From NCBI RefSeq assembly GCF_000719475.1, contig NZ_JOGO01000009.1, positions 62,001 to 126,000 of the forward strand: DNA of 64,000 nt. The letters are read 5' to 3'. A program made the translations under genes and the position numbers. This DNA is from Streptomyces sp. NRRL F-5630. Lineage in GTDB: Bacteria; Actinomycetota; Actinomycetes; Streptomycetales; Streptomycetaceae. This document shows, in pieces, positions 5,172 to 58,072 of this stretch (positions are counted from its first letter, which is position 1; every line of letters starts with the position of its first letter). The notes under the pieces are model-generated. The model was not told the DNA's origin. It did no database searches and saw only the letters and a list, made by a program, of their open reading frames with translations.

Positions 5172-5918
5172 ATGGCCTTCCTGGACGGGCTGCGGGGCGG
5201 AGCCGCCGCCTTCGACAGCGGAAACACGAGCGGCAGCGCGATCGAGCTGACCAAACGGCACCCCACGGTTTCCCTCTCCAAAGAGGGCGCCGTCTCGGGG
5301 AACCTGCGGGTCAATCTCTCCTGGCGGATGCGGACGAGCGACTTCGGCGAGCGGCGCCCCGGCGGGGGGCTGCGCGGCGGCTGGCGCAACCCGCTGAAGT
5401 TCTTCCAGCCCGAGGTCGTCCAGGCGCACACGCAGTCCATGGTCAATGTCGACCTCGACCTCGGCTGCCTCTACGAGCTGAAGGACGGCACCAAGGGCGT
5501 CGTGCAGCCGCTCGGCGGCTTCCTCGGCGACCTCAACGAGCCGCCCTACCTCAAGCTCAGCGGCGACGACCGCTTCGGCGCCCCCTCCGGCGAGACGATG
5601 TACGTCAACCTCGACCAGAAGGACGAGTTCAAGCGGCTGCTCGTCTTCGTCTACATCTACGACCAGACGCCCGCCTTCGAGCGCACGCAGGCGCAGGTCA
5701 CCCTCTACCCCAGCAGCGGCCGGCAGATCGTCATCGACCTCGACGAGCGGGCCCCCGAGGCGCGCTCGTGCGCGGTGCTGCGGATCGAGAACGTGAAGGG
5801 CGACCTGGTCGTGCACCGGGAGGTGCGGTTCGTGTACGGCTTCCAGGCCGAGCTGGACCGCCTGTACGGGTGGGGCCTGCAATGGGGGCGCGGGTTCAAG
5901 CCGAAGGCGGGGCGCTGA
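5172..5918 (+). CDS. TerA-like tellurium-resistance/stress protein
   Basis: A 248-residue soluble protein belonging to the extended TerD/TerA group. It has the VSLSKEGAVSGNLRVNLSWRMR opening strand, then DLDLGCLYELKDG, an internal SGDDRFGAPSGETMYVNLDQ segment and VFVYIYDQTPAF, which parallel the TerD beta-sandwich but with an extra central insertion (HTQSMVNVD). The insertion and lack of the GEGEGDDE loop separate it from true TerD proteins. ATG at 5172 is preferred; GTG at 5163 in the same frame is an alternative and neither has an ideal ribosome binding site. It stands between the TerC-type gene and a convergent TerD gene, so it is part of the Ter locus. Biochemical role is not known. Confidence 0.8.
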   Translation: MAFLDGLRGGAAAFDSGNTSGSAIELTKRHPTVSLSKEGAVSGNLRVNLSWRMRTSDFGERRPGGGLRGGWRNPLKFFQPEVVQAHTQSMVNVDLDLGCLYELKDGTKGVVQPLGGFLGDLNEPPYLKLSGDDRFGAPSGETMYVNLDQKDEFKRLLVFVYIYDQTPAFERTQAQVTLYPSSGRQIVIDLDERAPEARSCAVLRIENVKGDLVVHREVRFVYGFQAELDRLYGWGLQWGRGFKPKAGR

Positions 5919-5945
5919 GGAGCGGCCCGCGCCGGACGCGAGCCG

Positions 5946-6695
5946 TTACCTGAGGAACTGCGGCCCCATCAGCGGCAGGCCGCTCTCCGGCTCCTGCTGC
6001 GGGTGGCTGTACGGGTCGGGGACGGGCTGCCGCGGGTACCCGTACGGGGCGGGGGGCGCCGCCGGGGGCGGCGGGTAGCCGTAGGCCGGGACGGGGGCGG
6101 GGGCCGGGACGGGGGCCGGTTCCGCCGCCGGGGCCGGGGCGGGCGCCGCCGACTCGTCGACCGTGATGCCGAAGTCCGTCGCGAGGCCGATCAGGCCGTT
6201 GCTGTACCCCTCGCCGAGCGCGCGGAACTTCCACTCGCCGCCCCTGCGGTACAGCTCCCCGCAGATCAGCGCCGTCTCGGCGCCCGTCTCCGGGCGGATG
6301 TCGAAGGACGCGTACGGCTCCGCGTTCTCCCCGGCCGCCGCGTCGAGCAGCAGCAGGCGCAGGTCCCGTACGCCCTCGAAGGGCAGGCCCTCGGCCGAGG
6401 CGACGAGCAGGACCCGCTCCACCTCCGCGTCCACCCGCGCCAGATCGGCCTGGATCGAGTCCCGCATACTGCTGCCCAGGCGCCGCTTGCCGAGGCTCCA
6501 CACCGTCCCCGAGGGGTGCCTCGGCTGGTTGTAGAAGACGAAGTCGTCGTCGGAGCGCACGCGTCCGTCCGCCCCGAGCAGCAGCGCCGAGGCGTCGACC
6601 ACCGAGACCTCGGGGCTGGGTGACCAGCACACGACGGCGCGGACCGCCGCCGCCTCGACCGGGACGTTCGAGCCTTTCAGCATGGCGTGCGTCAT
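5946..6695 (-). CDS. TerD family protein with proline-rich C-terminal tail
   Basis: A 249-residue protein whose first ~175 residues are a TerD domain: SALLLGADGRVRSDDDFVFYNQP, VWSLGKRRLG, and WKFRALGEGYSNGLIGLATDFGITV. The calcium loop of the plain TerD proteins is replaced by HPSGTVWSLGKRR, so calcium binding may be lost. Residues ~176-249 are a low-complexity Pro/Ala/Tyr tail (PAPAPAAEPAPVPAPAP, YGYPPPPAAPP) resembling tails used for scaffolding. ATG at 6695 is preceded by a weak AAGGCAGGATG site. It is divergent from the CitE-like gene and convergent with the TerA-like gene. Probable role: a Ter accessory or adaptor protein. Confidence 0.88.
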   Translation of the reverse strand: MTHAMLKGSNVPVEAAAVRAVVCWSPSPEVSVVDASALLLGADGRVRSDDDFVFYNQPRHPSGTVWSLGKRRLGSSMRDSIQADLARVDAEVERVLLVASAEGLPFEGVRDLRLLLLDAAAGENAEPYASFDIRPETGAETALICGELYRRGGEWKFRALGEGYSNGLIGLATDFGITVDESAAPAPAPAAEPAPVPAPAPVPAYGYPPPPAAPPAPYGYPRQPVPDPYSHPQQEPESGLPLMGPQFLR

Positions 6696-48660: not shown

Positions 48661-49572
48661 TCACTTTCGCGCCCCGTCTCCCTCGTCCGGGGGCGGCGTG
48701 GGCGCGTCCGCCGCGAAGGAGACCTCCGGCGCGAACGCCGCCCTGCGGGTCGCCCGGCGCAGGGTCTTCAGGACGGCGGGCCCCAGCGTCAGGCTCAGCA
48801 CCGCCGTGAGCGCCGCCCGGGGCAGGTCCCAGCCGAGCGAGGTCGCGAGGCAGTAGGCGAGGAAGCGGGCGAGGTTCGCGCCGAGCGGGTCGCCGGGCAC
48901 GTACGAGACGCCCGTGGACAGGCCGCCGAGGTAGGGCCAGCCCTGGAGGTTCATGACGAAGCCGTACGCGAGCGCCGCGAGCGCCCCGTACCCCGCCAGG
49001 ACCAGCAGCTCGCGCGTCCCGCGCAGCGACCGCGACCCCGGCAGCAGGCCCGCGCCGCCCGAGACCCAGCCCATCGCGAGCATCTGGAACGGCAGCCAGG
49101 GGCCCACGCCGCCGGTCAGCAGCGCCGAGGCGAACATCGACACCGCGCCGAGCACGAAGCCGAAGCCGGGGCCGAGCACCCGCCCCGCGAGCACCATGAG
49201 GAAGAACATCGGCTCGATGCCCGCCGTGCCCGCGCCGAGCGGCCGCAGCGCCGCCCCCGCGGCGGCGAGGACCCCGAGCATCGCCACCGCCTTCGCGTCC
49301 AGGCCCCCGTCCGCGATCGCGGCGACCACGACCGCGAGCAGCAGCGGGAGCAGCGCCGCGAAGAGCCACGGCGCGTCCCCCGAGTGCGCGACGCCCGCAC
49401 CGGGCGCGGCGAGCAGCGGCCAGCCGAAGGCCATGATCCCGATCACGGTGACGAGTGCGAGCGCCGCGGCGGCCCGGGGCCCGAGACGCACGGCACGGGG
49501 CGCGCTCCCGGTACGGGCGGTCGTACGCCCCTGAGGAGCGGCCGTGCTCCCGGTACGGGCGGTGCCCCTCAT
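48661..49572 (-). CDS. ECF transporter S component
   Basis: A 303-residue membrane protein with about six hydrophobic segments (AAAALALVTVIGIMAFGWPLL, LFAALLPLLLAVVVAAI, AVAMLGVLAAAGAALRPLG, MFFLMVLAGRVLGPGFGFVLG, LLVLAGYGALAALAYGF). It fits the substrate-binding S component of energy-coupling-factor importers. A ~30-residue basic N-terminus and an acidic tail (APTPPPDEGDGARK) flank the core. ATG at 49572 overlaps the ATPase stop. Substrate cannot be read from sequence; vitamins or metals are usual. Confidence 0.85.
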   Translation of the reverse strand: MRGTARTGSTAAPQGRTTARTGSAPRAVRLGPRAAAALALVTVIGIMAFGWPLLAAPGAGVAHSGDAPWLFAALLPLLLAVVVAAIADGGLDAKAVAMLGVLAAAGAALRPLGAGTAGIEPMFFLMVLAGRVLGPGFGFVLGAVSMFASALLTGGVGPWLPFQMLAMGWVSGGAGLLPGSRSLRGTRELLVLAGYGALAALAYGFVMNLQGWPYLGGLSTGVSYVPGDPLGANLARFLAYCLATSLGWDLPRAALTAVLSLTLGPAVLKTLRRATRRAAFAPEVSFAADAPTPPPDEGDGARK

Positions 49573-51407
49573 CGCGGCGCCGTCCCCTCGGACCCGAGCG
49601 CCTCGGCGACCTGCCCCACCGTGAGCCAGGCCGCGCCCGGCGCGAGGATCTTCGCCGTCTGAGGGGCGAAGAGCGGCGAGGCCACGACGACCTCGGCGGC
49701 CGGGCCGTCCGCGACGACCTCGCCCTCGGCCAGGATGACGACGCGGTGCGCGAGTTCGGCGGCGAGTTCCACGTCGTGCGTGGCGAGGACGATCGCGTGC
49801 CCGGCGCGGGCGAGCCCGGTCAGGATGCCCACGAGCCGCGCCTTCGCCGCGTAGTCCAGGCCGCGCGTCGGCTCGTCGAGCAGCAGCAGCGGCGGGCGCG
49901 CGGTGAGCACGACGGCGAGCGCGAGCGCGAGCCGCTGGCCCTCGGAGAGGTCGCGCGGGTGCGTCGCGTCGGGCACCTCCGGCAGCAGTTCGCGCACGAG
50001 GGCCCGGCACGTCCCGGGCGCCGCACCCGCGTCCGCGTCGGCGGCGGCGCACTCGGCGGCGACGGTGTCCGCGTACAGGAGGTCGCGCGGCTCCTGCGGG
50101 ACGAGCCCGACGCGCCGGATCAGCCGGGCGGGCGCGAGCGCGCGCGGCGCCTCGCCGCCGACCGTCACGGACCCGGCCGTCGGCGCGAGCAGCCCGACGA
50201 GGCACGAGAGCAGCGTGGACTTCCCCGCCCCGTTGCGCCCCATGAGCGCGACGGTCTCGCCGCCGCGCACGGTCAGTTCGACGCCCCGCAGCGCCCGCAC
50301 GGTCCCCCGCGTGACCGCGAGCCCCCGCACCCGGGCGGCCTCGGCGCCGTGGGCGGGGGCGGTGGGGGCGGCGTCCGGCGCGGCCCGGCGGCGGAGCACG
50401 CGGTCGAGCAGGCGGGAGCGCGGGGAGCGGGCTTGTGCGGGGGAGGGCCGCGGGGCGAGGGGCGCTCCGTCGCACGGGACCGCCCCCGGGTCCGGGGAGC
50501 CCCCGGACGGGTCCGCCGGGCGAGGGGTCCCGCCCTCCGGGTCCGCCGGGCCGGGCGTCCCGCTGTGCGGGGCCGCCGCCCCCGGCTCCAGGCCGCTCAG
50601 CCGCTCCCGCAGACCCCCCGCCGTGCGCCGCGCGTCCCGTACCGACAGCGGCAGCGGGTCCCATCCGGCCACGCGGCCGAGCGCCACGACGGGCGGGACG
50701 ACCGGCGAGACCGCCATGACCCCGCGCGGGGTGCCCGTGACGGGCCGTGCGCCGAGCGCCTCGATGAGGACCACCCGGTCCGCGTACTGGACGACGCGTT
50801 CGAGCCGGTGCTCGGCCATGAGGACCGTCGTGCCGAGGTCGTCGACGAGACGGCGCAGGACGGCGAGGACCTCCTCGGCCGCGCCCGGGTCCAGCGCCGA
50901 CGTCGGCTCGTCCAGGACGAGGACGCGCGGGTGCGGGGTGAGCACGGAGCCGATCGCGAGGCGCTGGCGCTGGCCGCCGGAGAGCGTCGCGAGGGGGCGG
51001 TCGCGCAGTTCGTGCAGGCCGAGGAGGTCGAGCGTCTCCTCGACGCGACGGCGCATGACGGCGGGGGCGAGGCCCAGCGACTCCATGCCGTAGGCGAGTT
51101 CCTCCTCGACCGTGTCGGTCACGAAGTGCGCGAGCGGGTCCTGGCCCACCGTGCCGACGACATCGGCGAGCTCGCGCGGCTTGTGCAGCCGGGTGTCGCG
51201 CCCCGCGACGGTGACTCTGCCGCCGAGCGTCCCCCCGGTGAAGTGCGGCACGAGCCCCGAGACCGTGCCGAGCAGCGTCGACTTGCCGACCCCGGAGAGC
51301 CCGACGAGGAGCGCCAGCTCACCCTCGGGCACGGTCAGGTCCACGCCCGCGAGCGCGGGCGCCGCCGCCTCGGCGTAGGTGACGGAGACGTTGTCGAAAC
51401 GGATCAC
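49569..51407 (-). CDS. Double ATPase of an ECF-type transporter
   Basis: A 612-residue protein with two ABC ATPase domains in one chain. The first has Walker A GLSGVGKST (36-44) and LSGGQRQRL; the second has GRNGAGKST near residue 390, LSEGQRLALA as a variant signature and a Walker B LLLLDEPTRGLD. A Pro/Gly-rich linker (~270-350) joins them. Fused ATPase pairs of this kind serve ECF systems such as YkoD. GTG at 51407 overlaps the CbiQ stop by GTGA, and its own stop overlaps the S-component ATG. Confidence 0.92.
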   Translation of the reverse strand: MIRFDNVSVTYAEAAAPALAGVDLTVPEGELALLVGLSGVGKSTLLGTVSGLVPHFTGGTLGGRVTVAGRDTRLHKPRELADVVGTVGQDPLAHFVTDTVEEELAYGMESLGLAPAVMRRRVEETLDLLGLHELRDRPLATLSGGQRQRLAIGSVLTPHPRVLVLDEPTSALDPGAAEEVLAVLRRLVDDLGTTVLMAEHRLERVVQYADRVVLIEALGARPVTGTPRGVMAVSPVVPPVVALGRVAGWDPLPLSVRDARRTAGGLRERLSGLEPGAAAPHSGTPGPADPEGGTPRPADPSGGSPDPGAVPCDGAPLAPRPSPAQARSPRSRLLDRVLRRRAAPDAAPTAPAHGAEAARVRGLAVTRGTVRALRGVELTVRGGETVALMGRNGAGKSTLLSCLVGLLAPTAGSVTVGGEAPRALAPARLIRRVGLVPQEPRDLLYADTVAAECAAADADAGAAPGTCRALVRELLPEVPDATHPRDLSEGQRLALALAVVLTARPPLLLLDEPTRGLDYAAKARLVGILTGLARAGHAIVLATHDVELAAELAHRVVILAEGEVVADGPAAEVVVASPLFAPQTAKILAPGAAWLTVGQVAEALGSEGTAPR

Positions 51408-52576
51408 GGTGCGGGCTCCGGGGCGGTACGGGTCAGGGGCGGCGCGGGCGGCGCGGCGAGGGCGGGGACGAGCCCGGCGAGCACGGCGAGCGCGGGCCAC
51501 AGCGGGAGGACGGGCGCGACGAGCGGCACGACGCCGGGGTGCAGCGCGGGATCGTCCGCCAGGAGGACGAGCAGCGCGGCGACCGCGACCCCCGAGCCCG
51601 CCACGAGCCACGCCCGCACCCCCCAGGGATCGGGCCGGTAGCGGCTGCGCACCGCGCGCCGCCCACCGAGCCACAGCCCGCCCGCCGCCGCGAGCACCCC
51701 GGCCGCGAGCAGCGGGAACCCGTAGGCGGCGCCGGTGTCGGCGAGGAGCGCGTACGTGCCCGCACAGACCCCGAGCAGTCCGCCGAGCGTCAGCGCGGCC
51801 GTCGTGCGGCGCACCGCGCGCGGTACCGAGGCGGTCCGGCCGTAGCCGCGCGCGTCCATGGCCGCCGCGAGGGAGACGGAACGTTCCAGCGCACCCTCCA
51901 GCACCGGCAGCCCCACCTGGAGCAGCCCGCGCGGGCCCCGGTCGGGCCGCCCCCGCAGCCGCCGCGCCGCGCGCAACCGGCGCACGTCGGCCACGAGGTG
52001 CGGCGCGAAGGTCATCGCCACGACGACGGCGAGCCCGGCCTCGTACAGCGCGCCCGGCAGCGACTTCAGGAGCCGTACGGGACTCGCGAGCGCGTTCGCC
52101 GCGCCCACGCACACGAGGAGCGTCGCGAGCCGCAGCGCGTCGTAGCAGGCGAAGAGCAGCCCCTCCGCCGTCACGCGCCCGCCGAGCCGCACGCCTCGCG
52201 CCCACTCGGGGAGCGGGATCTCGGGGAGCGTGAGGAGCGTGTGGGTACCGGGGATCGGGGAGCCGAGCAGGACGGCGAAGCCGAGCCGGATGAGGAGCAC
52301 GACCGCCGCGAGCCGCAGGAAGGCCCCGTACGCACGCGCCCACGGCGCCTCGGTGCGGCGCGCGGCGACGACGTAGCTCGCCACGCCGACGAGGAGCGCG
52401 AGGAGCAGCGGGTTCGTGGTCCGCGTCGCGGCGGCGGCGAGCCCGAGCGCCCACACCCACCAGGCTCCGGCGTGCAGGGGCGGGAAGTCGCGGCGCGAGG
52501 GGCCGGGGGCGGCTCCCGTCCCGGCACGGCGCGCGGGGCCCGTGCCGCGCGTGCTCCCCGTCGTCGCGCCGCTCAC
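51404..52576 (-). CDS. CbiQ-like ECF transporter transmembrane (T) component
   Basis: A 390-residue membrane protein with about six helices. The segment SVSLAAAMDARGYGR is the conserved A-R-G coupling motif of the T component that contacts the ATPases, followed by a second motif region (RRTTAALTLGG). GTG at 52576 overlaps the preceding stop by GTGA. A longer N-terminus is possible in the open frame. Forms the coupling membrane subunit for the S component. Confidence 0.88.
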   Translation of the reverse strand: MSGATTGSTRGTGPARRAGTGAAPGPSRRDFPPLHAGAWWVWALGLAAAATRTTNPLLLALLVGVASYVVAARRTEAPWARAYGAFLRLAAVVLLIRLGFAVLLGSPIPGTHTLLTLPEIPLPEWARGVRLGGRVTAEGLLFACYDALRLATLLVCVGAANALASPVRLLKSLPGALYEAGLAVVVAMTFAPHLVADVRRLRAARRLRGRPDRGPRGLLQVGLPVLEGALERSVSLAAAMDARGYGRTASVPRAVRRTTAALTLGGLLGVCAGTYALLADTGAAYGFPLLAAGVLAAAGGLWLGGRRAVRSRYRPDPWGVRAWLVAGSGVAVAALLVLLADDPALHPGVVPLVAPVLPLWPALAVLAGLVPALAAPPAPPLTRTAPEPAP

Positions 52577-53268
52577 GGCCGCCGTCGGCGACGGGTCTGC
52601 CACCCGATGCCCGCCGCCAGCACGACGAGCACGCCGAGACCGGCGAAGACGCCCACGGAGGGGCCGTCTCCGCCGTCCCCGCGCGCCGAGGTCTCCTCCG
52701 CGGCCTTCCCGGACGGCTCGCCGGACGCCTTCTTCGACGGTGCCGCGACCTGTTCGCCGCAGCCGTGGCGCGGGTAGTCCGCGATGCCGCACAGGAGGGC
52801 CGAGGCGTCGTAGCGCAGCGGCTTCGCGACGGCGGCGAGCGCGTCGGCGGCGCTCGCGTCCTCGGGGACCCGGGCGCAGGCGGTACGGGCCCCGGGCGGT
52901 CGCTCGCCGGACGGCGCGTCCGCCGCCGTGCCGAAGTCGATGACGAGGCCCACGCGTTTCTGGCCCGCCCGCGCCTCCGTTCCGGCGCAGAGGGCGGCGA
53001 AGTCCGGCGCGGTGCGCGGCCGGGTCGCGTCGCCCGCGTCCTCGCTCACCGCGAAGCGGAAACCGGCCACGTCACCGTCCCCGGGGCGCGCGAGCGCGGG
53101 GCCGCGCGTCGCGTACCGCCACGCGCCCGTGTCCGTGCGCTCCCAGAACGACCAGTACCGGTACGCGCTCGCGGCCGAAGCGGGCGCGCCCACGCCGAGG
53201 ACGCAGGCGAGCGCGGCGAGGAGGACGAGGAGGGGGACGGCCGGTGACCCCGTTCGGCGGACGGTCAC
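52573..53268 (-). CDS. Surface-anchored protein of the ECF operon (SCO2322-like)
   Basis: A 231-residue exported protein with signal segment (PAVPLLVLLAALACVLGVGAPASA), an extracellular domain (YRYWSFWERTDTGAWRYATRG, VAGFRFAVSEDAGD, CARVPEDASAADALAAV), Cys pairs (CAGTE, TACAR, LLCGI, HGCGE) and a C-terminal transmembrane anchor (GVFAGLGVLVVLAAGIGW) followed by a poly-Arg tail. It resembles the family I recall as SCO2322-like. GTG at 53268 overlaps the preceding stop (GTGA). Its co-translation with an ECF importer points to substrate capture at the surface. Confidence 0.82.
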   Translation of the reverse strand: MTVRRTGSPAVPLLVLLAALACVLGVGAPASAASAYRYWSFWERTDTGAWRYATRGPALARPGDGDVAGFRFAVSEDAGDATRPRTAPDFAALCAGTEARAGQKRVGLVIDFGTAADAPSGERPPGARTACARVPEDASAADALAAVAKPLRYDASALLCGIADYPRHGCGEQVAAPSKKASGEPSGKAAEETSARGDGGDGPSVGVFAGLGVLVVLAAGIGWQTRRRRRP

Positions 53269-54533
53269 CGTGAGGAGTTCTTCTTGTTGCGGCTGCTCAG
53301 CAGGAAGCCGATCCCGGCCCCCGCGGCGAGACCGACGCCCACGAACCACCACGGGCTCGGCCCGCCGCCGTCGTCCTTCTTCGCGTCCTTCTCGTCCTTC
53401 GCGTGTTGCCCGTCCTCGCCGGAGTCGTGCGCCCGCACGGTCTCGCCCGCGACCGTCTTGCCGCCGGGACCCGTGGCCGCGAGCTTCGCGGGCAGGTCGC
53501 GGCCCGCGAAGTCGGCGGGGTCGACGCCGGTCGCGTGCGCGGCCAGGATGAGCTGCGCCCACGCGGCGGGCCCCGTCTTCGCGGCCCACGCCGGGCCCTC
53601 GGACCGGAGCCAGCCGACCGCCTCGCGCGCCTCCTCGGGCATCCCGGCCGCCGCGAGCGCGACGGCGGTGTCCGCGGTGTTGCCCGGGTCCGGCTTCGGC
53701 TTCGCGCCCGGCAGCGCCGTCGTCACCGCGCCGTTCCCGCCGAGGACGCCGCCGAGCCAGAGGGCGCCGTTGCGCGCGGCGTCCTTCGCGGTACGGGGTG
53801 TCTCGCAGCCCGTGCTCCCGCCGCGCTCCTCGTCCGGGGCGGCGACGACGAAGCCCGCGCCGTAACCGGCGGTGACGGCGGCGGCCGTCGCGTCGGCGTT
53901 CGCGACGAGCGAGCCGTCCTTCTCCGGCTGGAACGCGAAGGCGGAGCCGGCCTTGCCGGGCGACTGCTTCGCGTCGCACTTCAGCGCGAGGGAGAGCAGC
54001 GCGTCCTCGGCGGACTTCCCGCCCTTCGTGACAGAGGCGGGCCGCACGCCGAGCGCGCGCAGCGCGCCGAGCACGACGGAGGTCGAGTTCGCGTCGGACG
54101 GCGAACCCGCCGTGTACCCCCAGCCGCCGTCCTTGTTCTGCACGGACTTCAGCCAGCCGAGCGCCTTCTCGGCCTCGGCCCGGTGCCCGCCGATCGCGGC
54201 GAGCGCCTGGATCGCCGCGCCCGTCTGGTTCGTGTCCACCTGCTCCTTCGGCCCGCAGTCCGCCGCGGGCTTCTCGCGGTACGGGGCGAAGGAGCCGTCC
54301 TCGCACTGCTGCCCCACGAGCCAGTCCACCGCCTTCACGGGCAGCCGGCGGCCCGCCGCGTCGAGCGCGACGAGGGAGAGGGACTGCCGCCACACCCCGT
54401 CGTACGTGGGGTCCTGCGTCCCGAAGAGCCCCTCGGCGGGACCCGGCGCGGCGGCGAGGGCGGGCGCCGAGGCGGCACCGAGTGCGCCGGCGGCGACGAG
54501 GGGGACGACAGCGGTGAGACGGCGGAGGTTCAT
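53265..54533 (-). CDS. Secreted alpha/alpha-toroid (prenyltransferase/squalene-cyclase repeat) protein, ECF operon
   Basis: A 422-residue exported, membrane-anchored protein. Signal peptide ~1-28 (VVPLVAAGALGAASAPALAA), then QW-like helical repeats: CEDGSFAPYREKP, VQNKDGGWGYTAGSP, NGALWLGGVLGGNGAV, and a Lys/Asp stalk before a C-terminal transmembrane segment (WWFVGVGLAAGAGIGFLL). The same toroid fold builds the N-terminal domain of mammalian cobalamin carriers, suggesting a binding rather than catalytic role. Cys pairs (QQCEDG/ADCGPKE and KCDAK/GCETP) are possible disulfides. It is the first gene of the five-gene ECF operon; ATG at 54533. Confidence 0.85.
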   Translation of the reverse strand: MNLRRLTAVVPLVAAGALGAASAPALAAAPGPAEGLFGTQDPTYDGVWRQSLSLVALDAAGRRLPVKAVDWLVGQQCEDGSFAPYREKPAADCGPKEQVDTNQTGAAIQALAAIGGHRAEAEKALGWLKSVQNKDGGWGYTAGSPSDANSTSVVLGALRALGVRPASVTKGGKSAEDALLSLALKCDAKQSPGKAGSAFAFQPEKDGSLVANADATAAAVTAGYGAGFVVAAPDEERGGSTGCETPRTAKDAARNGALWLGGVLGGNGAVTTALPGAKPKPDPGNTADTAVALAAAGMPEEAREAVGWLRSEGPAWAAKTGPAAWAQLILAAHATGVDPADFAGRDLPAKLAATGPGGKTVAGETVRAHDSGEDGQHAKDEKDAKKDDGGGPSPWWFVGVGLAAGAGIGFLLSSRNKKNSSR

Positions 54534-54843
54534 GCGGGCGGCTCCTGGCGGGGCGCGCCTGGCCTGGGGCGCGGGGATTTCGGGGCCGCACCACTTTAGC
54601 GGGCGGGGGGTTTCGGCTGCTTTGGCGGGCAGGACCCCGGACCGGCCCACGGCCCGTGGCGCGTAAGGGCCGTGCCCGTCGCCGCCCGCCCTGACGTGCT
54701 CTTCGTCACCTCGCGCACCCGGTGTCCCGCTGAGGCTACTTGCCGGTAGATTCTGGGGGCGGACGACGATCAAGGGGAACTTGTTCGGTTTTGCAGTCCC
54801 GGCGTAGGCTCGCCGGACGTTCAGGAAAGAGAGGGTGCCTGGA
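54534..54843. other. Divergent promoter region of the ECF and GT operons
   Basis: About 310 nt. A rightward promoter is visible (see next entry). For the leftward operon I looked for a cobalamin riboswitch and found no conserved B12 box, nor an obvious operator. The segment includes inverted pieces CGGCCCACGGCCCGTGG near 54640. Confidence 0.55.
54781..54810 (+). promoter_or_regulatory. Putative promoter of the glycosyltransferase operon
   Basis: TTGTTC (54781-54786) and TAGGCT (54805-54810) are spaced 18 nt apart, matching housekeeping sigma consensus. The start of transcription would lie near 54817, 27 nt before the GTG start. Confidence 0.55.
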
Positions 54844-56232
54844 GTGACCGCCGAGGCCCTGGGTGCCCGCGCCGGACTCGATCGCCCGCTGCGCATCGCC
54901 CTGCTCACGTACAAGGGGAACCCTTTCTGCGGGGGACAGGGCGTCTACGTGCGCCATCTCTCGCGCGAACTCGCCCGGCTCGGGCACGAGGTCGAGGTGC
55001 TCGGCGCCCAGCCGTACCCCGTGCTCGACGAGGGCGTCCCGCTCACCGAGGTCGCGAGCCTCGACCTCTACCGCCAGCCCGACCCCTTCCGCACCCCGCG
55101 CCGCGAGGAGTACCGGGACTGGGTCGACGCGCTGGAGGTCGCCACGATGTGGACCGGCGGCTTCCCCGAACCCCTCACCTTCAGCCTCCGCGCGCGCCGC
55201 CATCTCGCGGCCAGGCGCGGCGCCTTCGACGTCGTGCACGACAACCAGACGCTCGGCTACGGCCTGCTCGGCGGCCCCCGCGCGCTCGGCGCCCCGCTCG
55301 TCACGACGATCCACCACCCCATCACGGTCGACCGGCAGCTCGACCTCGCCGCCGCCGAGGGGCTCAAGCGGCAGCTCTCCGTGCGCCGCTGGTACGGGTT
55401 CACGCGGATGCAGAAGCGCGTCGCGCGCCGGCTGCCCTCCGTCCTCACCGTCTCGGGCACCTCCCGCGCCGAGATCGTCCGCCACCTCGGCGTCGATCCG
55501 CGCCGCGTCCACGTCGTGCACATCGGCGCCGACACCGACCTCTTCTCGCCCGGCCCCGTGCCCGAGGTCCCCGGCCGGATCGTCACGACGTCGAGCGCCG
55601 ATGTCCCCCTCAAGGGCCTCGTGCACCTCGTGGAAGCGCTCGCGAAGGTCCGCACCGAGCACCCCGAGGCGCACCTCGTCGTCGTCGGCAAGCGCGCCGA
55701 GGACGGCCCCGTCGCGCGCGCCATCGAGAAGTACGGGCTCGGGCACGCCGTCGAGTTCGTGAAGGGCATCACCGACGCGGAACTCGTCGACCTCGTGCGC
55801 TCGGCGCAGGTCTCGTGCGTGCCCTCGCTCTACGAGGGCTTCTCCCTGCCCGCGGCCGAGGCGATGGCGACGGGGACGCCGCTCGTCGCGACGACCGGCG
55901 GCGCGATCCCCGAGGTCGCCGGGCAGGACGGCGAGACGTGCCTCGCGGTGCCCCCCGGCGACGCGGGCGCGCTCGCGCAGGCCCTCGGGCGGCTCCTCGG
56001 CGACGCGGACCTGCGCGGCAGGCTCGGCGCGGCCGGGCGGGCCCGCGTGCTGGAGCGCTTCACGTGGGCGCGCGCGGCCGAGGGCACCGCGGAGCGCTAC
56101 CGGGCGGCGCTCGCCCGCACCCCCGCCTCCCGCCCCGTACGGCCGCCCGCCTCCCGGGCCCTGGCGAGGACCCCCGCCGTCCCCGCCCGCGAAACCGCCA
56201 TCCCCGACCGCGAAAGCAGGTCTTCGTGCTGA
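54844..56232 (+). CDS. GT4-family glycosyltransferase
   Basis: A 462-residue GT-B glycosyltransferase family 4 enzyme. N-terminal LRIALLTYKGNPFCGGQGVYVRHLSRELARLGHEVEVLG binds acceptor; the donor half has VPLKGLVHLVEALAKV and PSLYEGFSLPAAEAMATGTPLVATTGGAIPEV with the E(x7)E motif. GTG at 54844 is chosen; GTG 54835 is nine bases upstream. Its stop overlaps the methyltransferase start (7 nt). Probably sugars a lipid or polymer made with the next two enzymes. Confidence 0.92.
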   Translation: MTAEALGARAGLDRPLRIALLTYKGNPFCGGQGVYVRHLSRELARLGHEVEVLGAQPYPVLDEGVPLTEVASLDLYRQPDPFRTPRREEYRDWVDALEVATMWTGGFPEPLTFSLRARRHLAARRGAFDVVHDNQTLGYGLLGGPRALGAPLVTTIHHPITVDRQLDLAAAEGLKRQLSVRRWYGFTRMQKRVARRLPSVLTVSGTSRAEIVRHLGVDPRRVHVVHIGADTDLFSPGPVPEVPGRIVTTSSADVPLKGLVHLVEALAKVRTEHPEAHLVVVGKRAEDGPVARAIEKYGLGHAVEFVKGITDAELVDLVRSAQVSCVPSLYEGFSLPAAEAMATGTPLVATTGGAIPEVAGQDGETCLAVPPGDAGALAQALGRLLGDADLRGRLGAAGRARVLERFTWARAAEGTAERYRAALARTPASRPVRPPASRALARTPAVPARETAIPDRESRSSC

Positions 56233-56990
56233 CCGTCGACTTCACCCGCTTCCCGCTCGCCCCGGGCGACCGCGTGCTCGACCTGGGCTGCGGAGCGGGG
56301 CGGCACGCCTTCGAGTGCTACCGGCGCGGGGCGCGGGTCGTGGCCCTGGACCGGAACGCGGAGGAGATCCGCGAGGTCGCCACGTGGTTCGCGGCCATGG
56401 AGGAGGCGGGCGAGGTCCCCGCGGGGGCGAGCGCGACCGCGATGGAGGGCGACGCGCTCGCGCTGCCCTTCCCCGACGAGACCTTCGACGTCGTGATCAT
56501 CTCCGAGGTCATGGAGCACATCCCCGACGACAAGGGCGTGCTCGCCGAGATGGTCCGCGTCCTCAAGCCCGGCGGGCGCATCGCCGTCACCGTGCCGCGC
56601 CACTTCCCCGAGAAGATCTGCTGGGCGCTCTCGGACGCGTACCACGAGGTCGAGGGCGGCCACATCCGCGTCTACAAGGCCACCGAACTCGCCGCGAAGC
56701 TGCGCGGCGCGGGACTGCGCCCCTACGGCGCCCACCACGCGCACGCGCTGCACAGCCCCTACTGGTGGCTCAAGTGCGCCTTCGGCGTCGACAACGACAA
56801 GGCGCTGCCGGTGCGCGCGTACCACAAGCTCCTCGTCTGGGACATCATGAAGAAGCCCCGTACGACCCGTTACACCGAGCACTTCCTCAACCCGCTGCTC
56901 GGCAAGAGCTTCGTGGCGTACGCGACGAAGCCGCACCTGCCCCACGACGCCGCGCCGGACGCCCACGACGCCGCGCCCACCGCCGTATGA
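56226..56990 (+). CDS. SAM-dependent methyltransferase of the GT operon
   Basis: A 254-residue class I methyltransferase. Motif I is VLDLGCGAGRHAFEC, with ALDRNAEEI, GDALALPFPDETFDVV and EVMEHIPDDKGVLAEM following. GTG at 56226 lies inside the glycosyltransferase frame, and its stop forms ATGA with the next gene. The C-terminus (PHLPHDAAPDAHDAAPTAV) is low-complexity. Substrate unknown; tight coupling implies a shared product. Confidence 0.92.
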   Translation: MLTVDFTRFPLAPGDRVLDLGCGAGRHAFECYRRGARVVALDRNAEEIREVATWFAAMEEAGEVPAGASATAMEGDALALPFPDETFDVVIISEVMEHIPDDKGVLAEMVRVLKPGGRIAVTVPRHFPEKICWALSDAYHEVEGGHIRVYKATELAAKLRGAGLRPYGAHHAHALHSPYWWLKCAFGVDNDKALPVRAYHKLLVWDIMKKPRTTRYTEHFLNPLLGKSFVAYATKPHLPHDAAPDAHDAAPTAV

Positions 56991-58072
56991 CGACGCCCCG
57001 CGCCGACCTCCCCGTCCTCCCGGGCGTCCTCACCGCCGAGGAGGCGCGCGCGACGGTCGCCGCGCTCCTCGCCCAGCAGCGCGAGGACGGGGCACTGCCC
57101 TGGTTCCGCGGCCACCACCTCGACCCCTGGGACCACACCGAGGCCGCGATGGCGCTCGACGCGGCGGGGGAGCACGAGGCGGCGGCCCGCGCCTACGCGT
57201 GGCTCGCCCGCCACCAGAACCCGGACGGCTCCTGGTACGCGGCCTACCACGACGGCGACTTCGAGCGGCCCACCGACCGCTCGCGGGAGTCCAACTTCTG
57301 CGCCTACGTGGCGGTCGGCACCTACCACCACTGGCTCGCGACCGGCGACACGGCCTTCGTCGACACCATGTGGCCGGTCGTGAAGGCCGCGCTCGGCTTC
57401 GTGCTCGGACTCCAGCAGCCCGGCGGCGAGATCGGCTGGAAGCGCGAGGCCGACGGCACACCCGTCACGGACGCGCTCCTGACCGGCTCCTCGTCCGTCC
57501 TGCACGCCCTGCGCTGCGGCCTCGCGCTCGCCGCCGCCCGCGGCGAGGCGCAACCCGACTGGGAACTCGCCGCGGGCGAACTGCGCCACGCCATCCGCCA
57601 CCACCCCGAGCGCTTCCTCGACAAGAGCCGCTACTCGATGGACTGGTACTACCCGGTCCTCGGCGGCGCGCTCGAAGGCGCGGAGGCGAAGGCCCGGCTC
57701 GCCGCCCGCTGGGACGAGTTCGTCGTGCCGGGCCTCGGCTGCCGCTGCGTCGTGCCCAACCCGTGGGTCACGGGCGGCGAGAGCGCCGAACTCGCCCTCG
57801 CCCTCTGGGCGGTGGGCGACACGGACCGAGCCGTCGGCATCCTGCGCGACCTGGGGCGGCTGCGGGACACGGAGACGGGCCTGTACTGGACGGGGTACGT
57901 GTACGAGGACGACGCCCTGTGGCCGCGGGAGCAGACGACCTGGACCGCGGGCGCGCTGCTGCTCGCGGTGGCGGCGCTCGCCGGGGAACCGGCGACGTGC
58001 GGGGTGTTCGGGGCGGGGCTCCCGGACGGGATCGGCGAGACGGTGGGGGGTTGTGCGTGTGGGGTGGGGTGA
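56987..58072 (+). CDS. Prenyltransferase/squalene-cyclase-like toroid protein of the GT operon
   Basis: A 361-residue soluble alpha/alpha-toroid protein. Repeats QREDGALPWFRGHH, PDGSWYAAYHDGDF, GEIGWKREADGTP and ETGLYWTGYVYEDD resemble QW-type motifs, while no DxDD protonation motif is visible, so cyclase activity is doubtful; a sugar hydrolase- or epimerase-like role is also possible. No signal peptide. ATG at 56987 overlaps the preceding stop by ATGA. It is the third gene of a GT-MT-toroid operon divergent from an ECF operon that also encodes a toroid protein. Confidence 0.82.
   Translation: MTTPRADLPVLPGVLTAEEARATVAALLAQQREDGALPWFRGHHLDPWDHTEAAMALDAAGEHEAAARAYAWLARHQNPDGSWYAAYHDGDFERPTDRSRESNFCAYVAVGTYHHWLATGDTAFVDTMWPVVKAALGFVLGLQQPGGEIGWKREADGTPVTDALLTGSSSVLHALRCGLALAAARGEAQPDWELAAGELRHAIRHHPERFLDKSRYSMDWYYPVLGGALEGAEAKARLAARWDEFVVPGLGCRCVVPNPWVTGGESAELALALWAVGDTDRAVGILRDLGRLRDTETGLYWTGYVYEDDALWPREQTTWTAGALLLAVAALAGEPATCGVFGAGLPDGIGETVGGCACGVG

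Follow-up and report, generated by a model that had tools for sequence, protein, structure and literature searches.

What does a Streptomyces energy-coupling factor (ECF) importer take up when two of its five genes encode proteins predicted to sit on the cell surface? This question is raised by an operon at positions 48,661 to 54,533, on the minus strand, of a 64,000-nucleotide stretch (the window) from Streptomyces sp. NRRL F-5630 (contig NZ_JOGO01000009.1). An initial annotation made from the letters alone had read it as an ECF importer operon of five genes with two anchored surface proteins, one of them an alpha/alpha-toroid as in intrinsic-factor-type vitamin B12 carriers. Our analysis indicates that the operon most likely encodes an ECF importer of cobalamin (vitamin B12) or a closely related corrinoid, equipped with an intrinsic-factor-like surface trap in two pieces. 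The gene coordinates bore out the five genes and the 4-nt overlap at each junction:

53265..54533, minus strand: gene 1, P0001, secreted, C-terminally anchored alpha/alpha-toroid protein of the SCO2321 family, circularly permuted against its relatives (NF053823, AF2/PDB comparison, permutation test)
52573..53268, minus strand: gene 2, P0002, small, secreted, C-terminally anchored protein of the SCO2322 family with a circularly permuted DUF4430-like beta domain (NF040672, profile alignments)
51404..52576, minus strand: gene 3, P0003, EcfT/CbiQ transmembrane protein (PF02361)
49569..51407, minus strand: gene 4, P0004, ECF ATPase with two ATP-binding cassette (ABC) domains in a single chain (PF00005)
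48661..49572, minus strand: gene 5, P0005, ECF S component, the substrate-binding membrane protein (PF12822, identity to the S components of relatives)

P0001 and P0002 are members of the SCO2321 family NF053823 (480.7 bits, cut-off 300) and the SCO2322 family NF040672 (221.3 bits, cut-off 85), respectively. P0003 exceeded the cut-off of PF02361 (30.9 bits, cut-off 25), and P0004 matched PF00005 with 181.6 bits in two stretches, corresponding to two ABC ATPase domains. The match of P0005 to PF12822 (28.9 bits, E 1.4e-6) was slightly below the cut-off of 30.7, and no CbiM/NikM match was listed for it in the Pfam and NCBIfam scans. With 15 S components aligned from the operons of relatives, P0005 shared 37-58% identity, and it retained the residues invariant among them; 14 of these 15 came from loci with the riboswitch match described below, the exception being L128 (L and G numbers denote loci and genomes).

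Of 435 loci found with P0001, the best 80 were kept, all from Streptomyces. All five genes were present in 64 of the 80, and of the 16 others, 15 end 3.4 kb or less from the toroid gene. In L055 (Streptomyces misionensis strain 66) the toroid, beta, EcfT and EcfA genes were seen, and no S-component homologue was found within 8 kb after the toroid. The 4-nt overlap was conserved at the toroid-beta (78/80), EcfT-EcfA (71/73) and EcfA-S (62/64) junctions, and at the beta-EcfT junction in only 20 of 74 loci. When 396 genomes of the phylum were searched with the SCO2322 model, 54 gave a match at E<=1e-3 and 13 exceeded the cut-off: G062 and every one of the 12 sampled genomes that belong to the window's genus. 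Twenty loci (L111-L130) were fetched from 19 of the 54 genomes, picked by score and spread. Homologues of EcfT, EcfA and the S component were present in all 20, and together with the identity of the 15 S components to P0005 this indicates that the weak, partial SCO2322 matches in these loci are real homologues. The operon thus occurs in all 12 same-genus genomes sampled and in other actinobacterial families.

The first line of evidence for the ligand is regulatory. A cobalamin riboswitch match lay just upstream of the surface genes, on the coding strand, in 19 of the 20 fetched loci. It scored above the Rfam gathering threshold in nine (L113, L115, L118, L119, L120, L122, L123, L126 and L127) and below it in ten (L111, L112 with the adenosylcobalamin (AdoCbl) model, L114, L116, L117, L124, L125, L129, L121 and L130; the matches of L121 and L130 come from a genome-wide scan). 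The remaining locus, L128, gave no match, and its toroid open reading frame (ORF) starts at base 151 of the contig. In L126 the surface genes and the ECF genes are on opposite strands. The genome-wide scan covered 13 genomes and placed a riboswitch at the SCO2321 operon in 8 of the 12 same-genus genomes (E<=0.001); the gathering score of 31.5 bits was reached by G161, G352, G369 and G246 and not by the other four. The four genomes left were the window's own and G023, G193 and G107, and the last three show a degenerate core by eye.

A core pattern of 39 nt with 36 fixed bases was also searched within Streptomyces. Only 2 of 8 loci passed the Rfam gathering threshold though 7 of the 8 carry the core, which marks the riboswitch as a divergent form. 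The search covered 520 nt upstream of the codon that corresponds to P0001 residue 35, and the core was present with at most 9 mismatches in 76 of the 80 Streptomyces loci; the best of 79 control stretches, taken just downstream of the toroid, had 14 mismatches. The misses were L031 and L032 (17 mismatches each), L049 (13) and L069 (12). The check for a cobalamin-linked regulon, suggested in the initial annotation, had a positive outcome at the orthologous operons. L121, from a genome of the window's genus (G171), holds a second, canonical-order ECF operon back to back with an ABC operon that includes a solute-binding protein. The two sides carry separate cobalamin riboswitch matches (5575-5768 on the minus strand and 5929-6132 on the plus strand; 91.6 bits and 26.9 bits, the second score being below gathering).

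The second line of evidence is the B12 economy of the genomes that carry the operon, which were the 19 genomes fetched from and the window's own (G000). CobI/CbiL exceeded the cut-off in 5 of the 20 (G000, G171, G204, G062 and G134), and methylmalonyl-CoA mutase was present in 14 of the other 15, the exception being G002. A FecCD permease over the cut-off was absent from 10 of these 15 (G390, G366, G102, G247, G106, G073, G016, G001, G002 and G294). With the mutase present and neither CobI/CbiL nor a FecCD permease over the cut-off, nine genomes, whose completeness is given as 89-99%, appear to require B12, not to make it via CobI/CbiL and to have no BtuC-type permease. The operon is a candidate B12 importer for these nine. 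The window's genome, which has CobI, gave six cobalamin riboswitch matches. The five over the cut-off were inspected, and the genes behind them were, by eye, an iron/B12-type binding protein, MetE, CobN, a cobalamin-biosynthesis gene and a ribonucleotide reductase; a FecCD gene lies behind the first. The methylmalonyl-CoA mutase match of this genome (contig C28, 50632-50904) was short, with 45.3 bits, and those of 18 of the 19 other operon genomes were much stronger. It is possible that the mutase was lost in the window's lineage.

The same data bear on what exactly is carried. The operon might serve cobalamin metabolism by importing a precursor or a part (cobinamide, other cobamides, alpha-ribazole or cobalt) instead of cobalamin itself, a reading that we consider unlikely. 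Cobalt transporters linked to B12 riboswitches are described in PMC2667541, and the opposite-strand riboswitch of L121 precedes a solute-binding-protein ABC operon that looks nickel/peptide-type by eye. However, the mutase in 14 of the 15 genomes without CobI over the cut-off points to a need for the whole corrinoid, P0005 had no listed match to CbiM/NikM, and a bulky alpha/beta trap would make more sense for a large ligand than for a metal ion.

If cobalamin is the cargo, why has the window no riboswitch? Its absence had been noticed in the initial annotation, which took it to mean that the ligand may differ. The absence itself was upheld: RF00174 gave no match at E<=10 in window positions 54400-54900, and the best core score, 15 mismatches, was at the control level. 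The step to another ligand was not, given the riboswitch in nearly all orthologous loci. L031 and L032, which also miss the core, are the nearest relatives of the window among the 80 loci. The region upstream of gene 1 holds the following features:

54534..54589, minus strand: short leader at the position of the riboswitch in relatives, none being found in the window
54590..54599, minus strand: promoter-like -10 motif CTAAAGTGGT (minus-strand reading), first base 66 nt upstream of the start codon

The promoter-like TAAAGT at 54599-54590 resembles a motif that precedes the cobalamin riboswitch in relatives. Judging by these letters, the riboswitch leader was probably deleted or otherwise lost in the window's small clade, and expression there should no longer respond to cobalamin. 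A switch of this clade to another ligand after the loss seems very improbable. It would fit the missing core in the window, L031 and L032 and the fragmentary mutase match of the window's genome, but all five reading frames are open and P0005 retains what is invariant in the S components. Moreover, the window's toroid, 87-89% identical to those of L031 and L032, is still 48-57% identical to those of 45 other aligned Streptomyces orthologues, all of which except L049 carry the riboswitch core.

The third line of evidence for a cobalamin importer with a surface trap comes from the two surface proteins. The AF2 model of P0001 and its PDB matches showed an alpha/alpha-toroid fold, as the initial annotation had proposed. 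This fold is generic, and the animal cobalamin carriers were not among the 50 PDB matches listed for the model; the closest solved folds were squalene-hopene cyclases and drimenyl diphosphate synthases. PF01122, the eukaryotic cobalamin-binding protein family, gave no match to P0001 at E<=0.1, and matched 3 of 14 toroids of relatives, all below the cut-off of 25 (best 20.4 bits over 40 residues). In the PDB search the relatives' toroids scored far higher against squalene cyclases. The proposal of an intrinsic-factor-type toroid in an ECF importer is hence supported, and extended by a second protein resembling the beta domain, while the sequence kinship of the toroid with the animal carriers is weak and suggestive only. 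That the toroid is an enzyme of the terpene cyclase or glycosidase type, with the ECF module moving something unrelated to B12, is hardly credible: the nearest solved folds and a DxDD string, the class II cyclase motif, in 6 of 17 relatives' toroids (at positions 256-263 in four) speak for it, but DxDD is not conserved (5 of 48 SCO2321 proteins besides those 6 of 17), and the pairing with a beta domain, ECF genes and a cobalamin riboswitch would be left unexplained.

The toroid was found to be rearranged. Eighteen relatives' toroid ORFs were profiled, and 17 of them entered the rotation test; the alignments used 47 of the 80 toroids and 44 of 78 beta proteins, besides the window's own. Rotation alignment assigned the two parts of P0001 as follows:

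53799..54437, minus strand: P0001 residues 33-245, the C-terminal part of the relatives' toroids
53466..53798, minus strand: P0001 residues 246-356, the N-terminal part of the relatives' toroids

Against the 17 relatives, the P0001 family rotated at residue 245 aligned over 294 columns with a score of 315.8, compared to 192 columns and 208.8 in native order (208.9 over 188 columns in a repeat run); the optimum was smooth at 235-255. The SCO2321 profile matched in swapped order, C-terminal part first, in 12 of the 18 ORFs and straight through in L130, and the other five gave a match to a single part or to repeats. The repeat build of toroids allows for register shifts, but the counterparts of the C-terminal and N-terminal parts of P0001 are contiguous in relatives, which argues for a true permutation. 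A toroid was present in the fetched stretch of 16 of the 20 loci and absent from those of L111, L114, L115 and L116; G062, the source of L111, had no SCO2321 match genome-wide. The toroid-free stretches of these four loci hold a riboswitch match, a beta domain and ECF genes. The beta domain is therefore the more constant partner.

The beta domain of P0002 was rearranged as well, according to profile alignment:

52981..53172, minus strand: P0002 residues 33-96, second half of the canonical beta domain (YWSFW...GFRF)
52741..52980, minus strand: P0002 residues 97-176, first half of the canonical beta domain (V.LVIDFG...C...LLCGI..YP..GC)

The beta profile of the relatives ran in canonical order in all 18 loci from L112 to L129; in L111 and L130 it was split into two pieces whose order was exchanged. 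SCO2322 aligned with the canonical beta domain over 38 columns (score 76.5) in native order and over 102 columns (135.8) after rotation. The native result was reproduced, and the rotated score stayed at about 136 for cut points 72-100 and was lower outside. The canonical beta domain in turn matched DUF4430 in hhalign at 95.3% over 96 columns, where the E-values for one pair are not those of a database search. Compared directly with DUF4430, SCO2322 gave 60 columns in native order and 59 rotated, at about 85% in both; rotation did not help, so the link between SCO2322 and DUF4430 runs via the canonical relatives. The Pfam DUF4430 model gave no match to P0002 at E<=0.1 and matched 1 of 18 relatives with E 0.12. 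The structure model of P0002 was too poor for a fold search.

Within the phylum, DUF4430 itself exceeded the cut-off in 34 of the 198 genomes searched. EcfT or EcfA homologues accompanied it in 17 of 25 short loci (L137-L161). Six further loci with or beside DUF4430 (L169-L174) showed a riboswitch above gathering in three cases and ECF homologues in four. A riboswitch of 69.2 bits heads the series DUF4430, toroid, SCO2322-like gene, EcfT and EcfA in L170, and L173 has a riboswitch of 106 bits farther upstream of its DUF4430, EcfA, S-component and toroid genes. No riboswitch above gathering was found in L169, L171 and L172, and no ECF homologue in L171 and L174.

How are the two proteins held at the surface? 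Both are secreted, and their C-terminal anchors, also claimed initially, correspond to hydrophobic segments:

53292..53348, minus strand: P0001 residues 396-414, C-terminal hydrophobic segment, putative membrane anchor
52603..52659, minus strand: P0002 residues 204-222, C-terminal hydrophobic segment, putative membrane anchor

The tail of P0002 resembles GPS-CTERM (NF040681) with 27.5 bits, just below the cut-off of 28, and the separate beta proteins of relatives end in hydrophobic tails by eye. Other attachments were seen on the relatives' toroids: CWB2 repeats in L117 and L119, S-layer domains in L124, and an LPXTG-like end just below the cut-off in L120. The database counterpart of L119, from Euzebya, is named 'cell wall-binding repeat-containing protein'. 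Toroid and beta domain follow each other in a single chain in L117 (two copies), L118 and L119. In the window they are separate proteins. PF28005, a newer Pfam family, is precomputed for several fused toroid-beta-wall-binding proteins (P0006 and relatives) and did not turn up in scans with the Pfam copy used. It may already describe the toroid, the beta or the wall-binding domain of these proteins.

From these results we propose the following mechanism for cobalamin import. The SCO2321 and SCO2322 proteins would be secreted and then tethered, via their C-terminal segments, to the outside of the cell membrane; there they would be the counterparts of the alpha and beta domains which close around B12 in animal intrinsic factor and transcobalamin. 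Since the halves of the trap are separate and each is permuted, the corrinoid would have to be clamped in trans at the membrane surface. The pair would then hand it to the S component, which the motor of EcfT and the double ATPase would turn over to release the ligand inside. The alpha and beta fragments of human intrinsic factor, when separate, come together again around cobalamin, and a two-piece trap is therefore plausible. It is conceivable, although we put it at somewhat less than even, that Streptomyces has a split 'intrinsic factor' whose anchored, permuted halves assemble around cobalamin and feed an ECF pump, and that the animal alpha-plus-beta carriers share ancestry with this bacterial system.

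The animal carriers intrinsic factor, transcobalamin and haptocorrin consist of an alpha/alpha toroid and a beta domain. According to PMC4350170, TCN proteins carry DUF4430 at their C-terminal end. The bacterial proteins resemble them in the toroid and, among the relatives, in a beta domain that aligns to DUF4430, and L117, L118 and L119 share the alpha-then-beta order in a single chain. The halves in the window differ in being separate, membrane-anchored and circularly permuted and in having no PF01122 match. With such an architecture beside a bacterial importer, the origin of the animal B12 carriers becomes testable. Circular permutation of both partner domains within one lineage is also an unusual case of protein evolution.

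Among bacterial systems, ECF-CbrT of Lactobacillus delbrueckii is likewise an ECF importer and was shown to transport cobalamin and cobinamide (PMC5997447). The ECF module of CbrT is one that other S components use too, whereas here the module genes with the double ATPase, the S component and two surface proteins form one operon. The S-component profile gave no relevant PDB chain match at E<=1. The metal transporters CbiMNQO and NikMNQO also have a CbiQ-family EcfT and a CbiO-like ATPase; this operon differs from them in having a surface trap and no listed CbiM/NikM match. BtuFCD-type ABC importers import corrinoids too, with a different membrane architecture and binding protein. In 2009 BtuFCD was called the only known prokaryotic B12 transporter, and organisms without it were noted (PMC2667541).

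P0001 and P0002 belong to NCBIfam families named solely after SCO2321 and SCO2322, and the model descriptions shown for NF053823 and NF040672 give no function. We propose one here and add the ligand class, the domain kinship and the permutation. We recognised no paper on the function of the SCO2321-2325 operon in the literature searched, with the S. coelicolor riboswitch list outside the search's reach. The one paper found to contain SCO2321, PMC9237094, derives a delivery peptide from its signal peptide. Nine B12 riboswitches in S. coelicolor are cited by PMC4991794 from its reference 61; that of SCO2321 may already be among them and hence known. What we rate as new is the split, permuted surface trap added to an ECF vitamin importer, itself a known type.

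The plus-strand neighbours at 54835-58072 diverge from the operon. By eye they look like genes for a glycosyltransferase, a methyltransferase and a prenyltransferase-repeat protein, of which the last gave a weak match to the SCO2321 profile (22.2 bits at 57038-57250).
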